Of a stretch of 64,000 bases of DNA, positions 10,990-35,512 are shown in pieces. The DNA lies in the IMG/VR virus record IMGVR_UViG_3300025030_000088, positions 1 through 64,000 of that record; one strand, 5' to 3'. Below the pieces are notes generated by a model. That model worked only from the letters and a program-made list of their open reading frames with translations, was not told the DNA's origin and searched no databases. Position 1 is the stretch's first letter, and each line of letters begins with the position of its first letter. A program made the translations under genes and the position numbers. The DNA comes from a virus.

Positions 10990-12648
10990 CTATCCAACTA
11001 ATTTTTCATAATCTGATTTGTACATCCATTTAAAACCACCTGCATGATTATATTTACCAAGACAACAAGAAGAAATATTTGAATGATTTATTTTTAATTG
11101 TCTTTCTGCTTCAATAATACTATCAAACTCCGAAATATATTCTTTATTTAGTGATAGTTGAACAACTTTTTTAACATATGGAGATTTTTTATATTGTTTT
11201 ATTTCGCTTTTATTATAATCTGAAAGAAACATCCATTGATATCCACCAGCAGATTTTAATTTACCTCTGCAACAAGATGAAATACTCATAATAATAATTC
11301 CTGTTTGTTTTTCAGCTTCAACCATGCTACTATATTCTTGAACATATTCACCACTTAACGACAATTGAACAACTGGTTTCGCCCCTGATTTTCCTAATCT
11401 TACCCCACTTGCTTTTTGTATTTCATTGGCATCATAATCACACCACCCCAATTTACTACATTCATTAAGATATCTTATAACTGTTCTCTTTCCTAAGTTC
11501 AGAATAACACTAATTTCTGATGAATTTTTAATTCCAGCATTCCATAATTTAGATGTTTCTTTTACTAAATTGTTACAAGCAAACTCATGACATTTTAACC
11601 AATCAATATTAGATAAATCAAATATCTGTGCTAATCCACTAACTAAAATATTATCTCTAATATATTTCATATCTGATTTTACACAATCAATTCTAATCAT
11701 CTTAATATTATGTTCTTTTGCTTTTTTATCTTTATAATCATCTATAGCTTGAGATTCTTCAGGGGTGGTTCCATCTAATGTTTTTTTATTACCATGTCCC
11801 AATGCTCTATCCATTTCAATTATATATTTTTTATTATTAAATTCAAAATAACTATCATATCTCTTAGGTTTAATCCAATCCGGTGAATATTCGAATTTTA
11901 TATATTTTAATTTGTATGTATTATTTAATTGGTTTAATAAATTACGTCCAAACTTATTGGGGTATGAAATATTATCTCCACAAATAGAACATCCCACTTG
12001 CCCACGTGTAATAGCATTCATACTTCTTTCAAATATATGATTACAGTCTAAACATTCCCATTTAAGTTTTACATCATAGCCAATGTACTCATCACTCAAT
12101 CTAATATTATAATTATTTATTTTACACCAATTATTAATATTTTGATATATGTATATATTAGATTTATAAAACCCTTGTGGTATATAACCTTTTTTTATGC
12201 TGGAAATTTTAATTTTACTATACATATATCCATCCGAATTAATTAAATCTACATTAATTTGAGTATTTATTATTTTAACATTAAGTAATTTCCAAGTATC
12301 TCCTAAGTTATTATTAATTATTTGCTTAACTTCTTGTGCTTTAATTCCATTAATATATAATGAATTAAAACAATTTATACAATAATGTTGTTCATCGTCT
12401 TTAATATATTTTCGATAATCATTCAATGCTATTGTTTTTAAATATTCTCCACACTCATCACATCCAATATCAACTTGCACCTTATAACTATCTAATAAAT
12501 CCTCTACTTTAACTAATATTTTTGTATTCTGTGGAACTGACAACCTTCCTTGATTATCTTTTTCCCTTGGTATTATATATCCTTTATTTTTATACCATTT
12601 AATATGTCTTCCACTTAAGCCAATTTCTACTTCTTTTGTTAGCAACAT
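10990..12648 (-). CDS. Homing endonuclease (PD-(D/E)XK-type) with two NUMOD1 repeats
   Basis: 552 aa, ATG start. The N-terminal 100-aa zinc module (GYIIPREK, ILVKVEDLLD, CDECGEYL, CINCFNS) matches the 2670-3992 protein. A CxxC ribbon (CLDCNHIF/CSICG) precedes a Vsr-like nuclease core with KRYDSYFEFNNKKYIIEMD and ALGHGNKKTL (a D...E...H pattern) and IKMIRIDC. A helix-turn-helix follows (AGIKNSSEISVILNLGKRT). Two NUMOD1 repeats end the protein (VVQLSLSGEYVQEY...GGYQWMF and VVQLSLNKEYISEF...GGFKWMY). It is free-standing between portal and protease genes and has its own promoter. Confidence 0.85.
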   Translation of the reverse strand: MLLTKEVEIGLSGRHIKWYKNKGYIIPREKDNQGRLSVPQNTKILVKVEDLLDSYKVQVDIGCDECGEYLKTIALNDYRKYIKDDEQHYCINCFNSLYINGIKAQEVKQIINNNLGDTWKLLNVKIINTQINVDLINSDGYMYSKIKISSIKKGYIPQGFYKSNIYIYQNINNWCKINNYNIRLSDEYIGYDVKLKWECLDCNHIFERSMNAITRGQVGCSICGDNISYPNKFGRNLLNQLNNTYKLKYIKFEYSPDWIKPKRYDSYFEFNNKKYIIEMDRALGHGNKKTLDGTTPEESQAIDDYKDKKAKEHNIKMIRIDCVKSDMKYIRDNILVSGLAQIFDLSNIDWLKCHEFACNNLVKETSKLWNAGIKNSSEISVILNLGKRTVIRYLNECSKLGWCDYDANEIQKASGVRLGKSGAKPVVQLSLSGEYVQEYSSMVEAEKQTGIIIMSISSCCRGKLKSAGGYQWMFLSDYNKSEIKQYKKSPYVKKVVQLSLNKEYISEFDSIIEAERQLKINHSNISSCCLGKYNHAGGFKWMYKSDYEKLVG

Positions 12649-30248: not shown

Positions 30249-32231
30249 TTATGTATTTTTATTATTCAATCTTTTCTCTGCAATATCACAATAATCCTTA
30301 TTCATTTCAAATCCTATATGATCAAAACCCGATTCTCGACAAGCAAGAAATGTTGTACCTGAACCTTCAAATGGGTCTAAGCATATACCATTAGGTGGAG
30401 TAACTAATGTGACTAAATATTTAATTAATGATAATGGTTTGACGCATGGATGATTATTTCCTTCACCACGTTCCTTTTTACTTGCTTTAGCACAATACAT
30501 AAAATTAATATAATTTCCTTTTTTCTCTTTGATATTCTCTGTGATATTTATTATTAGATTCTTTGTTGATATATCTCCATTCTCGTAATTTTTCTCTTGA
30601 ACAATTTTTACAATATCCTTGATAACATTCATTTCTTTTATAAAATTCATTAATATTTTTATATTCTCCACAGTGTTGACATTTTCTATATTCAATTCCA
30701 TCAATAATTTTATGATCTTTTCTTGCATCTCCATGTAATTTATTATGTTTATATTTTGATAATAATTCCAAATTTTCAATTCTATCGTCAGATTTGTCAC
30801 TATTAATATGATGCACTTCAAATCCAACAGGAATTTCTCCATAGTTTTGTTCCCATATATATCTTGCTCTACGTTTTGAATAAATTTTTCTATCTCCTGG
30901 ATTACGCCATTTAATGTACCAACGACCTTCAGATTTTCTATAATATTCCCACATATATAATCATCCTCACAATATAATATATTTAAAAAATATCTACTTG
31001 CTCCACCTGTATCACCATGTTGATTTTGTAATGTTGATTTACCTCTTAAAAATCCCGTATTAGATTCTCCTTTATAAGCATCTTTATTTTCTTTTACTTT
31101 TCCACTTTTAGTAATACCACTTTGCAAATCTAATATTTTCCCTGCTTCTTCGTCCATAATTATATTTGCAGGGAATCTACCTTCATTATTAACACATTCT
31201 CTTGCTTGGTTTAATGGTGTACTACCTGTACCATATAAAGTATCTGATGTACCAAATCCTATTGATTTAGAATTCTCAGTAAAGTTACATTTTGCTTTAA
31301 CAATTTTTAAATCTTCTTCTGATTGATATTCAACCCTACAATCATCAATATTAATTCCACCAGTGTTCCATTTTAGAACATTATCTACTATAGTTTTTTC
31401 ACTTAGAGGTTTTCTTGCTACTATAATTGGTTCGTGTGCTGGTTTAAGGGATGTACCGTATCCAGACCATTGCTTTGCTTCTTCTGTTGCTAAATCAAAT
31501 AATTCTTCTGTTTTTGAATTTGATTGTGAACCAACAATTTTAGCAAAATCATTTCCACCACTTCTTTGATGCACAATTTCACCAATCTTTTTACCTTTTT
31601 TGCTAATAAATTGTTCTCTAAAATATGGTTTGTCCTGCAATATTTCTTCTAACAATAAATATCTTTTTTCATTGGGATTTTGAGGACAAGGAGTATTAAT
31701 ACCAATCCAATGATCTATTTGTCTAGGTGTTACATTACAATGTTTTGCAACATCTTTTTTATCTAAATTTAATAATTCCATTCTTTTTAAAATCCATTCA
31801 CCTATATTAACTTTACATCTTCTTTTTTCCATTTCTTTTGAGATATTCATTGATTTGGGAAAACCAGTCGAATAGATCCAGTCAATTTGATCTCTAATTT
31901 CAAATACTGCTAATCTTAAACTTATACACATTAAATCATATGTACGTGTTCCAGCAAAGCATAATAAGTATCCTCCTGGTTTTAATACTCTATATGCTTC
32001 TTTCCATATAGAAGGATTGGGAACAAATGAATCCCATGCGACATTCATAAATCCTTTTGAATTATGTATGTATTCTTCATTGTTTAACCAGTTAGTTAAA
32101 ACCTCTACTATATTTGGCTCTTTAGATAATCCGTAAGGTGGGTCGGTGACAATTGATGATATAGAATTATCTGGTAGTAACTTCATACCTTCTTTACAGT
32201 CTTGATTATAGATTTTATTTAGTTGTAGCAA
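30249..32231 (-). CDS. Beta-type DNA methyltransferase with an internal HTH and an HNH insertion
   Basis: 660 aa, TTG start after AAGGAGG. DPPYG (residues 30-34) comes first and FEGSGTT (about 620) last, the beta-class order of N4/N6 amino-methyltransferases. Around 140-210 is an unusual insert with a helix-turn-helix (LDKKDVAKHCNVTPRQIDHW). Normal flanking sequence ASRYFLN then FYCAKASKKERGEGNNHPC is separated by about 155 residues (about 421-578) that are encoded by the same DNA as the HNH gene 30505-30954, read in another frame. With the insert removed the length would be about 505 aa. The enzyme may protect phage DNA; it lies alone, without a cognate restriction gene. Confidence 0.85.
   Translation of the reverse strand: MLQLNKIYNQDCKEGMKLLPDNSISSIVTDPPYGLSKEPNIVEVLTNWLNNEEYIHNSKGFMNVAWDSFVPNPSIWKEAYRVLKPGGYLLCFAGTRTYDLMCISLRLAVFEIRDQIDWIYSTGFPKSMNISKEMEKRRCKVNIGEWILKRMELLNLDKKDVAKHCNVTPRQIDHWIGINTPCPQNPNEKRYLLLEEILQDKPYFREQFISKKGKKIGEIVHQRSGGNDFAKIVGSQSNSKTEELFDLATEEAKQWSGYGTSLKPAHEPIIVARKPLSEKTIVDNVLKWNTGGINIDDCRVEYQSEEDLKIVKAKCNFTENSKSIGFGTSDTLYGTGSTPLNQARECVNNEGRFPANIIMDEEAGKILDLQSGITKSGKVKENKDAYKGESNTGFLRGKSTLQNQHGDTGGASRYFLNILYCEDDYICGNIIENLKVVGTLNGVIQEIEKFIQNVEQDIYGNKTMEKFLLDLKCIILIVTNLTIELKIWNYYQNINIINYMEMQEKIIKLLMELNIENVNTVENIKILMNFIKEMNVIKDIVKIVQEKNYENGDISTKNLIINITENIKEKKGNYINFMYCAKASKKERGEGNNHPCVKPLSLIKYLVTLVTPPNGICLDPFEGSGTTFLACRESGFDHIGFEMNKDYCDIAEKRLNNKNT
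30505..30954 (-). CDS. HNH endonuclease nested in the methyltransferase gene
   Basis: 149 aa, ATG about 10 nt after GAGG. Core is ARYIWEQNYGEIP, EVHHINSDKSDDRIENLELLSKYKHNKLHG, a full HNH motif, followed by a CxxC ribbon (CQHCGEYKN...CKNCSREK). Its stop overlaps methyltransferase codons. The methyltransferase frame stays open through the whole gene, so the DNA would be translated in two frames if both proteins are made. Confidence 0.8.
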   Translation of the reverse strand: MWEYYRKSEGRWYIKWRNPGDRKIYSKRRARYIWEQNYGEIPVGFEVHHINSDKSDDRIENLELLSKYKHNKLHGDARKDHKIIDGIEYRKCQHCGEYKNINEFYKRNECYQGYCKNCSREKLREWRYINKESNNKYHREYQREKRKLY

Positions 32232-32318: not shown

Positions 32319-33710
32319 TTATCGTATTTGTTCTAATTCTAATAACATTTCTTCGTAATCTTCTTTATACATCCATTTGAATTTACCTGCTGTTTTAGCT
32401 TTGCCACTACAACATAATGATATACCTCTTATATTTAACTCTTTTTCTGCCTTTGTAATACTTTCCCATTCTTTTATAAATTTATTTTCAAGTAATAATT
32501 GAATAACTTTTCTTTTACCTTTATTATAATCACAGAATCCTGATTTAACACCTTTGTTTAAATATGAAACAATAGTAGCATGACATAATTTCATTAATTT
32601 TGCTATTCCTTTTGTACTTTTGATACCATTATTCCAATAATCACATGCGATTTTTACTAAACTCTTATTAGTAAATTCTTCACATTTATTCCAGTCTATT
32701 ATGGATAAATCAAACAAATTATTTAATTGACTATTTAATATATTGGTTTTTATATATTCTAATTCACTTTTTAAACAATCAATTCTTATTACTTCTATAT
32801 TATGCTGATTTATAAATATATCTCTTTGTTTATCATCTTCTTTAGATTCTTCTGCTGTTTTATTAATTAGTGTATTTTTATTCCCGTGACCTATACCGCC
32901 ATCCATTTCAAAATTATACTTTTTATTATTTAATTCAAAATAAAAATCTAATCTATAATTATAAAAATTATGTTCAGGTATAAAGTCAATTCCTAATTGC
33001 TCTAATAAATTAAATCCTACTTTATTAGCAAAAGAAATTCCATCTCCGCATTTTGGACAACTAAAGCCAAATCTAATTATGTTATAAGGAAGATATAATT
33101 TTTCATATCTACAATTAGGACAAACAAATAATTCATAATTATGCTTTCCTTGACTTATTTTATATCCTAATTCTTTATCCTTTAATAATTTTGCAATATG
33201 TGGATGAGTAGTCCAAAGATCGTTATAACCTTTTAAAACTTTCTTTGAGGGAAAACAACAAACATTACAACCTCGTTTACCATCTAATTTACTTTCACTT
33301 ATTTGATCTTCGTTTCCGCATTTTAAACACTTATATTTATAACCTTTTTGCATATCTATTTTACGAGGAATTCTAATTTGTTCTATTATTTCTATTTTAC
33401 TAAATTTGTTTTCTATAATATCGCCAATATTATATTTATAATCTTGAATATGTTTATTTAATAAATTACCCAATCCACAATTAATAAAAACATTAGTAGT
33501 TATACTTACTGTTCTATCATTATATTTAATATCTAAATAATTTTGATATTTTATTTTATAATAATTAACAATTTCTAATTCGTCTTCAATATTATCATAA
33601 ATAAATTTTAATTTGTACCCTACACTATTCTTCCAATCATAACATAATTTATTAATATACATACCTTTACCATATTTCTTAGGTAAATCATCTAAGAAAA
33701 CTTTTCTCAT
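32319..33710 (-). CDS. Homing endonuclease (PD-(D/E)XK-type) with NUMOD1
   Basis: 463 aa, ATG. CxxC ribbons (CLKCGNED, CPNCRYEKL, CPKCGDG) precede a Vsr-like nuclease core: NYRLDFYFELNNKKYNFEMD, GGIGHGNKNT, IEVIRIDC. This is the same core as the gene at 10990-12648. A helix-turn-helix (GIKSTKGIAKLMKLCHAT) and one NUMOD1 repeat (VIQLLLENKFIKEW...GKFKWMY) end the protein. It lies between the methyltransferase and helicase genes and is probably free-standing. The N-terminal module differs from that of the other two endonucleases. Confidence 0.8.
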   Translation of the reverse strand: MRKVFLDDLPKKYGKGMYINKLCYDWKNSVGYKLKFIYDNIEDELEIVNYYKIKYQNYLDIKYNDRTVSITTNVFINCGLGNLLNKHIQDYKYNIGDIIENKFSKIEIIEQIRIPRKIDMQKGYKYKCLKCGNEDQISESKLDGKRGCNVCCFPSKKVLKGYNDLWTTHPHIAKLLKDKELGYKISQGKHNYELFVCPNCRYEKLYLPYNIIRFGFSCPKCGDGISFANKVGFNLLEQLGIDFIPEHNFYNYRLDFYFELNNKKYNFEMDGGIGHGNKNTLINKTAEESKEDDKQRDIFINQHNIEVIRIDCLKSELEYIKTNILNSQLNNLFDLSIIDWNKCEEFTNKSLVKIACDYWNNGIKSTKGIAKLMKLCHATIVSYLNKGVKSGFCDYNKGKRKVIQLLLENKFIKEWESITKAEKELNIRGISLCCSGKAKTAGKFKWMYKEDYEEMLLELEQIR

Positions 33711-33730: not shown

Positions 33731-35512
33731 TTATATTTTATTGTTCTTAAAAAATTTATATCTCATAATTAAATATTCTTTAAGTTTCTCGCTAAAACAA
33801 ATTCTAAAATTTGACCTTGTAATTCCAACATATATAATATTTGCCTCTTCGTAAAAATCTTCTATTTTAAAATCAATGTCATCACCTTTATTTATATATT
33901 CCTTTCTAAAAACAGTAGGAAGATCAAATATATCATCAGAAATATAAATTGGTAGTGTTATTGATTTTCCTTTAGATTTATGTATGGTACTAAATAAAAC
34001 ATTTGCTTTATTTGTATCATTAGTTGTATTATTTTTTATTCTATCTATAATATCAGGAATTAAACTACCATACTTTTCAATCATTCTATTAATAGCAATA
34101 ATCTCTATATCTCCTACACGATCAGCATATTTTATCATCTTATTATAATCTTCAAATTTATTAAATAAAGGATTATTAACTTTGTGACCTTTATAGAACC
34201 AGTAGGCATCTTTCAAAACTGAAAAATTATAACTAGAAAAACCAGATTCAAAATAGAGTTTAGCATTTTTATTAGCACTAATAACTTCAATTGCTTCACC
34301 TAATATAAATGCATTAGTTCTACATAAACAAACATAAGGTTTAGATTTATCAATATTATCCACAATTTTTTGTTTGTCATTAAATCCCTTCATATTAATA
34401 TCAATTTTATAAATATCTTTAATTATAAGATTAGCAATATTAGCAATATTCTGACTTACTCTAAAAGAAGTGGTTAATTTGTATTCTTTACCTTCAAATA
34501 AAGGTAGTATATTAGTTGAATCTCTCCACTTGTATAAACTTTGGTAAACATCACCACAAATTACTATACCTTTAACATTAGATGATTTAAGTATATCAAG
34601 TAATAATTTCGACAAATCTTGACATTCATCTACCATAATTATGTCAAATTTGTTAGATAAATCCATTTTGCTAAGATGGAAGAGTTTTAAATAAAAATCA
34701 TGTTCCACCTTGACTGAATTTTTATAATCCTTTTTTAATTCCCATAATTTTTTACATTTATGTATAATCAAATCTCTTTGTTTTGTTGTATTGCCATCTT
34801 CATCTTTAAATAATTCAATCTCTTCAAATTCAATTTTATCAGATAACATATATTTTTTCATCATTGCATCTATTTTAACTGCTAATTCCATATCTTTATT
34901 CCAATCAAGTTTTAAATCCTTAATAATATCTACAACTCCATAATTGAATGTTAATTTATTTTTGTAAAATTTTCCTACTATGCCATAGGCAAATCCATGT
35001 TGAGTTTTCACAGTAACATTATTTAGTTTAGAATATAATCTATCGGCTTCCTCACGCATACTTTTATTATATACTACGTAGAGAATTTTTTTAAAGGGGC
35101 GTGTTTTAGCGTAATAATAAAGAGTCGTACTTTTCGACGAACCACTTAAAGCTGCAATCTTTATCCTATCCTCTTTTGCAAATATAATATCTTTCTGTTC
35201 CTGAGTTAAATAATAACCTTCCTCAGACATGTAATCTGATAATTCAATATGTACATCATCAAATGTTTTATTATAATATTCTCTATTTAGAATATCTATT
35301 TCATTAGATGATAATATTTTTTCATTATTCTTTAACATTAAATTAAATTTTAATTCACAATCTTCACTCCCATTAGGATGAGAAAAATATTGTCTACTAA
35401 TACCAAAGTTTCTTATTAATTCTTCTTTACATACTGGACATATGTATGTTTCTTCTTTAGTAGATTCTATAATATCTACTAATTTTCCATATTTACTTAA
35501 TGCTTTCTTCAA
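33731..35512 (-). CDS. UvrD-like superfamily 1 DNA helicase
   Basis: 593 aa, TTG after AAGGAG. The N-terminus has a CoiA-like zinc motif (CPVCKEELIRNFGISRQYFSHP region). The helicase has Walker A ALSGSSKSTTL (the usual GSGKT reads GSSKST), Walker B DIIMVDECQDL, motif III GDVYQSLYKWR, motif IV LTTSFRVSQNIA and motif V STIHKSKGKS, then YVGITRS. Motif I deviates at the glycine before lysine, so ATPase activity should be checked. Probably acts in phage replication or recombination. Confidence 0.85.
   Translation of the reverse strand: MKKALSKYGKLVDIIESTKEETYICPVCKEELIRNFGISRQYFSHPNGSEDCELKFNLMLKNNEKILSSNEIDILNREYYNKTFDDVHIELSDYMSEEGYYLTQEQKDIIFAKEDRIKIAALSGSSKSTTLYYYAKTRPFKKILYVVYNKSMREEADRLYSKLNNVTVKTQHGFAYGIVGKFYKNKLTFNYGVVDIIKDLKLDWNKDMELAVKIDAMMKKYMLSDKIEFEEIELFKDEDGNTTKQRDLIIHKCKKLWELKKDYKNSVKVEHDFYLKLFHLSKMDLSNKFDIIMVDECQDLSKLLLDILKSSNVKGIVICGDVYQSLYKWRDSTNILPLFEGKEYKLTTSFRVSQNIANIANLIIKDIYKIDINMKGFNDKQKIVDNIDKSKPYVCLCRTNAFILGEAIEVISANKNAKLYFESGFSSYNFSVLKDAYWFYKGHKVNNPLFNKFEDYNKMIKYADRVGDIEIIAINRMIEKYGSLIPDIIDRIKNNTTNDTNKANVLFSTIHKSKGKSITLPIYISDDIFDLPTVFRKEYINKGDDIDFKIEDFYEEANIIYVGITRSNFRICFSEKLKEYLIMRYKFFKNNKI

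Follow-up and report, generated by a model that had tools for sequence, protein, structure and literature searches.

How can a complete endonuclease gene lie inside the DNA methyltransferase (MTase) gene of a phage, with the host reading frame remaining open from one side of it to the other? This question is raised by a locus in the 64,000-nucleotide stretch of DNA analyzed here (the window), which comprises positions 1 to 64,000 of IMG/VR record IMGVR_UViG_3300025030_000088, an uncultivated virus record of 71,570 bases. A first-pass annotation of the window, made from the sequence alone, had described a complete HNH gene in another frame of a beta-type MTase and had proposed a dual-coding homing insertion that left its host gene translatable.

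The nested HNH gene and its host methyltransferase

The arrangement comprises the following elements:

30249..32231, minus strand: N6/N4-type DNA methyltransferase ORF of 660 codons, with a TTG start at 32231, open through the insert
30505..30954, minus strand: nested HNH_3 endonuclease ORF encoding 149 aa, in frame -1 relative to the MTase
30964..30968, minus strand: Shine-Dalgarno-like GAGGA, 9 nt before the HNH ATG and within the MTase frame

The host ORF matched N6_N4_Mtase (Pfam, E=1.3e-30) as well as phage DNA-methyltransferase families, and the positions of its motifs, DPPYG early and DPFEGSGTT late, correspond to the beta order. N6_N4_Mtase was the sole Pfam match in the 660-aa product, in which no intein or Hint domain was found, and the locus has no free-standing C-terminal fragment. 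A structure model of the full-length protein was confident over the first 120 and the last 60 residues, while the part encoded by the insert was modeled as low-confidence helices (pLDDT about 40-54), which counts against taking the tolerance of such a loop for granted. At approximately 31500-31840 the window MTase contains a longer HTH-like variable region (NIGEWILKRMELLNLDKKDVAKHCNVTPRQIDHWIG), which is much shorter in the relatives L004-L008 and is probably a different target-recognition segment. ORFs matching the homing-endonuclease-associated phage families phrog_4538 and phrog_9084 are located at 32319-33710 and 10990-12648, one of them adjoining the MTase.

The nested ORF matched HNH_3 (PF13392) with E=1.3e-15 and 57.2 bits, compared with a gathering threshold of 24.8. 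Its product carries the HH..N..H catalytic residues, with H48, H49, N61 and H70 invariant across the nested HNH relatives, together with a CxxC..CxxC zinc-binding pair. The structure model of this protein was confident (pLDDT 85), and its top fold match was I-HmuI (PDB 1u3e; Foldseek probability 1.00, but E value 0.08); searching PDB sequences with the HNH profile produced nothing beyond weak, spurious matches. The HNH ATG is located at position 3n+2 of the MTase coding sequence, the host frame reading the HNH DNA from HNH codon position 2. Three codons upstream of this ATG the HNH frame is closed by a TGA (TGA TTA TAT, then ATG). The complete HNH gene in another frame was thus confirmed as a 149-aa HNH_3 ORF inside an open frame of 660 codons.

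Insert boundaries and empty alleles

Uninterrupted MTases, with which a comparison had been proposed in the first-pass annotation, were found in the relatives L005-L008. These are empty at the insert site and define the insert and its surroundings:

30508..30954, minus strand: insert of 447 bp, starting with the ATG of the HNH gene and ending with its last sense codon
30955..30961, minus strand: ATTATAT, upstream copy of a 7-bp direct repeat, at the insert boundary
30508..30514, minus strand: ATTATAT, downstream copy of the repeat, the last 7 bases of the insert
30957..31001, minus strand: host linker ASRYFLNILYCEDDY, counterpart of SRFFKQCNYDDSDYE in the empty-site relatives
30464..30508, minus strand: host sequence resuming past the insert, INFMYCAKASKKERG (motif X region), from the comparison with L005-L008

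The insert corresponds exactly to the HNH coding sequence, and its length is therefore a multiple of three; the HNH stop codon TAA is supplied by retained host sequence (ATTAAT) outside the 447 bp. An insertion of extra in-frame residues was correctly recognized in the first-pass annotation, but its size is 149 codons rather than about 155. In empty copies the sequence is SRFFKQCNYDDSDYEVINFKYCAKAS or SRFFKQCNYDNNDYEANFMYCAKAS and in the window SRYFLNILYCEDDY-[HNH]-INFMYCAKAS; the insert sits in a linker of variable length that precedes motif X. The flanks ASRYFLN and FYCAKASKKERG had been expected to be adjacent in an uninterrupted gene. This applies only to more distant MTases, which read SRFFYCAKAS directly, and does not hold for the closest relatives, where L005-L008 have the linker SRFFKQCNYDDSDYEVINFKYCAKAS. 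Likewise, the TATTGTG repeats reported to flank the insert (30968-30974 and 30491-30497) are real, but they were rejected as its boundary because INFMYC and the preceding linker match the empty relatives; both copies lie outside the insert, which is bounded by ATTATAT.

The presence of the insert is sporadic, the window, L002-L004 and L047 being occupied and L005-L008 and others empty. L002 and L003 represent the same allele. L004 carries a divergent occupied allele (82% in the best segment) with the same HNH and both frames open, and in L047 an HNH that is 45% identical, with an ORF of 63% GC, is found at the window's site, again with both frames open. Occupied L004 and empty L005 share the metagenome number 3300024999, indicating that the alleles coexist. 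The same insert in an MTase lacking the HNH frame, which had been named beforehand as evidence against dual coding, was not seen among the relatives. The insert and the sequence directly flanking it were 93-98% identical, versus 43-60% for other segments of the MTase gene only a few hundred bases away, a mosaic profile that would fit co-conversion, that is, repair-mediated or mosaic exchange.

Inteins were observed at other positions in this allele group. The MTase of L004 (L004:2001-4709) also has a LAGLIDADG-containing intein-like insert at WIYG/C...TGN/SGFPKS, which the window MTase does not have, and the neighboring UvrD-like helicase of L004 (L004:15-1973) has an intein at DEC/.../QDL, the helicase of the window (33731-35512) being intein-free.

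Maintenance of the doubly open frame

Profile searches of IMG/VR and GTDB genome contigs yielded 197 loci with an HNH of this family, 58 of which are nested in a longer ORF on the same strand, nearly all of them (56/58) in the register of the window, -1 to the host. These loci are not independent and include near duplicates (e.g. L131/L136, L151/L152, L146/L150), and in GC-rich contigs long open frames partly favor nestedness. Sixteen host ORFs were identified as MTases by profile. Most MTase insertions are accounted for by two sites: site A, before motif X, with the window allele group and L047, and site B, between motif X and HPTVKP, with L048-L053, L059, L140, L190 and others. Where MTase sequence was recognized on both sides of the HNH, the insert was in phase and the host frame open in 14 out of 14 cases. 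The sole exception is a later find, L028/L029, where a single TGA right after the site-B HNH closes the host frame, so that an open host frame is not absolute. Nor is the register rule, strong as it is, since in L020 (L020:1986-5292) an HNH is concealed within an MTase intein in the opposite one of the two registers; further downstream a DUF559/Vsr-like ORF splits this gene, as is also found in L021. L022 was rejected as a further split MTase, as its pieces overlap and a frameshift is the simplest account. No comparable nested insert was identified in an MTase-centered survey of 80 further MTase loci (L243-L322), and occupancy is therefore low and sporadic. Among the matches listed when named phages were searched for nested HNHs related to those of L053 and L047, none is located inside an annotated methylase.

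Chance was ruled out as the source of the open host frame by codon simulations and by the non-nested relatives. When the HNH protein sequence was held constant and codons were sampled according to phage usage (26.6% GC over the 43 genes taken for codon statistics), the MTase frame contained a mean of 5.4 stops, and the probability of no stop was 0.00035; when the HNH gene's own synonymous codons were permuted, a stop-free host frame was obtained with P=0.010. Not a single one of 6,737 stretches of 150 codons from other phage genes was stop-free in this register, the minimum being 5 stops, and the same was true of the 49 full-length non-nested HNH relatives (mean 8.8 stops), a set from which the 29-codon fragment L075 was set aside. 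The favored register contains about half as many stops as the other (8.8 vs 17.7). Stop counts alone are, however, insufficient to account for the register bias, since the two registers are similar at high GC, and shared ancestry or another constraint probably contributes to it.

The inserts of the window and L004 differ at 18 of 450 nt, distributed 12:3:3 over HNH codon positions 3, 2 and 1, a pattern that indicates purifying selection on the HNH. Each of the 18 differences alters a residue in the MTase frame and none creates a stop. The MTase-frame sequence of the insert is not what is conserved; openness alone is kept.

We consider it likely that the locus carries an intron-less HNH homing gene, which persists because the host is still translated through the insert. 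A mobile HNH homing-endonuclease gene, without an intron or intein of its own, would have landed in the MTase linker before motif X, with DNA that happened to be, and would be kept, stop-free in the host register. With that register stop-free through the insert, one mRNA would give two products: full-length translation would produce an MTase with a 149-residue extra loop, probably helical, which may retain activity, and internal initiation at the ATG preceded by the Shine-Dalgarno-like element would produce the HNH endonuclease. Internal initiation would be the simplest route, as GAGGA lies 9 nt before the ATG and the TGA closes the HNH frame upstream. The endonuclease, in turn, is expected to cut empty alleles, followed by repair from an occupied copy. 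The dual-coding insertion put forward in the first-pass annotation is the best-supported account, in view of the empty sites, the open alleles in L004 and L047 and the almost always open host frame around family HNHs in MTases, with homing and MTase activity as its presumed components. It would mean that a selfish endonuclease gene can live in a host gene without splicing machinery, its own DNA being read as harmless filler. The window offers a clean case of this: the insert is exact, alleles without it exist, a distant copy occupies the same site, and a ribosome-binding site can be seen.

It is improbable that the HNH simply splits the gene, leaving an inactive or two-piece MTase for which readthrough would not matter. 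Nothing would require a split gene to remain open and in phase, yet the frame is open in the window, in L004 and in L047, beyond chance, even if splitting does occur among the relatives, as illustrated by the DUF559/Vsr-like ORF in L020/L021 and by the TGA after the second HNH in L028/L029. Synthesis of the HNH by -1 frameshifting from the MTase frame, as an MTase-HNH fusion and not by internal initiation, appears very unlikely. The -1 position of the HNH frame in the nested loci does coincide with the commonest direction of programmed frameshifting, but in the window this origin was rejected on account of the TGA just upstream of the ATG. The GAGGA at suitable spacing also argues against it, as does the enrichment of Shine-Dalgarno-like cores at nested HNH starts (14/54 versus 118/1,623 control codons, or 7.3%; 4.5-fold, P=4e-5). 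A self-splicing intron that carries the HNH ORF and renders the open host frame incidental is scarcely credible: although HNH endonucleases are the classic cargo of phage group I introns and I-HmuI is the top fold match, the insert is wholly HNH coding sequence, with no catalytic core of a group I or group II intron, and, as noted in the first-pass annotation, it lacks the room for an intron core; Rfam gave no relevant match at the gathering or a relaxed (E<=10) threshold; and an open host frame, which would be unnecessary for an intron, is present in all 14 family inserts flanked on both sides by MTase sequence.

Hidden HNH genes in other phages and in inteins

Hidden HNH genes have been described previously. 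The ShiLan domain, first described in 2023 (PMC9957025), is an HNH that lies out of frame in the methylase of a mycobacteriophage, leaves the host frame open and shows no sign of an intron or intein (Arsenault, Gosselin, Gogarten, Genes 2025, PMC11855218). Pacc40 is a second case (PMC11855218), and Applejack gp54/gp55 is another (PMC12613952).

ShiLan gp65 is homologous to the window MTase (blastp 7e-19), and both contain an out-of-frame HNH and zinc-binding pairs. The two loci also share the open host frame, the register, the lack of an intron or intein signal and the sporadic distribution, and gp65 has an intein at the same position as the MTase of L004. However, the ShiLan insert is located earlier in the gene, beside LKPxxEPxxVAxKP, whereas that of the window lies before motif X. 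In ShiLan the HNH start codon is a GTG located 18 bp inside the insert, and no ribosome-binding site is detectable, while the window insert is the exact ORF, with an ATG after GAGGA, and the window contig is low in GC (about 26%), unlike the mycobacteriophages. The window insert is thus not a ShiLan domain proper, as it occupies another site, but it is of the same kind, with a complete out-of-frame HNH, a stop-free host frame, sporadic presence and no intron or intein signature. Since this kind has already been published, the window element is a further example, independently placed. New with respect to the published cases are its site, the host lineage, the minimal exact-ORF insert, the visible ribosome-binding site and the wide survey, which includes terminase inteins. 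The survey loci L196 and L028 have an HNH at or near the ShiLan-type site, and the MTase of L028 (L028:2271-5420) contains two hidden HNHs, one at this site and one at site B before HPTVKP.

Pacc40 gp60 likewise has an out-of-frame HNH-like ORF in a phage methylase/helicase ORF, in the same register (PMC11855218); compared with the window, it represents another MTase subtype and another site, and its ORF is weakly HNH-like. Proteins related to the window HNH are also found among free-standing phage HNH_3 homing endonucleases, for example in Escherichia phage JacobBurckhardt and Pectobacterium phage Zenivior. Their genes stand between genes, and the full-length non-nested relatives have stops in the register. 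I-HmuI resides within a group I intron, which the window HNH does not have.

About 40 of the nested HNHs are located outside MTases. When 21 non-MTase host ORFs were scanned, 16 matched Intein_splicing and 13 matched Terminase_6N. In the intein hosts, the out-of-frame HNH is flanked on both sides by Hint motifs and ANGVLVHNC-type ends that are read in the host frame. In L056, L065, L071, L078, L094, L097 and about 30 other loci, the HNH lies out of frame in terminase-type inteins, in a register like that of the MTases. In the literature searched, the scope of which did not include Gorbalenya 1998 (Non-canonical inteins; cited in PMC11855218), we found no description of an out-of-frame HNH in inteins.

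The survey suggests that this arrangement occurs commonly in phages and that inteins are also among its hosts. Hiding one base out of step in host ORFs may be a general and recurrent lifestyle of this HNH group, an idea that we regard as evenly poised. It would involve several MTase sites as well as many terminase inteins, within their splicing domains, with one register used in almost all cases and the host frame kept open by selection against HNH codon pairs that make host-frame stops. If this is true, inteins with an out-of-frame endonuclease represent a little-recognized intein architecture.
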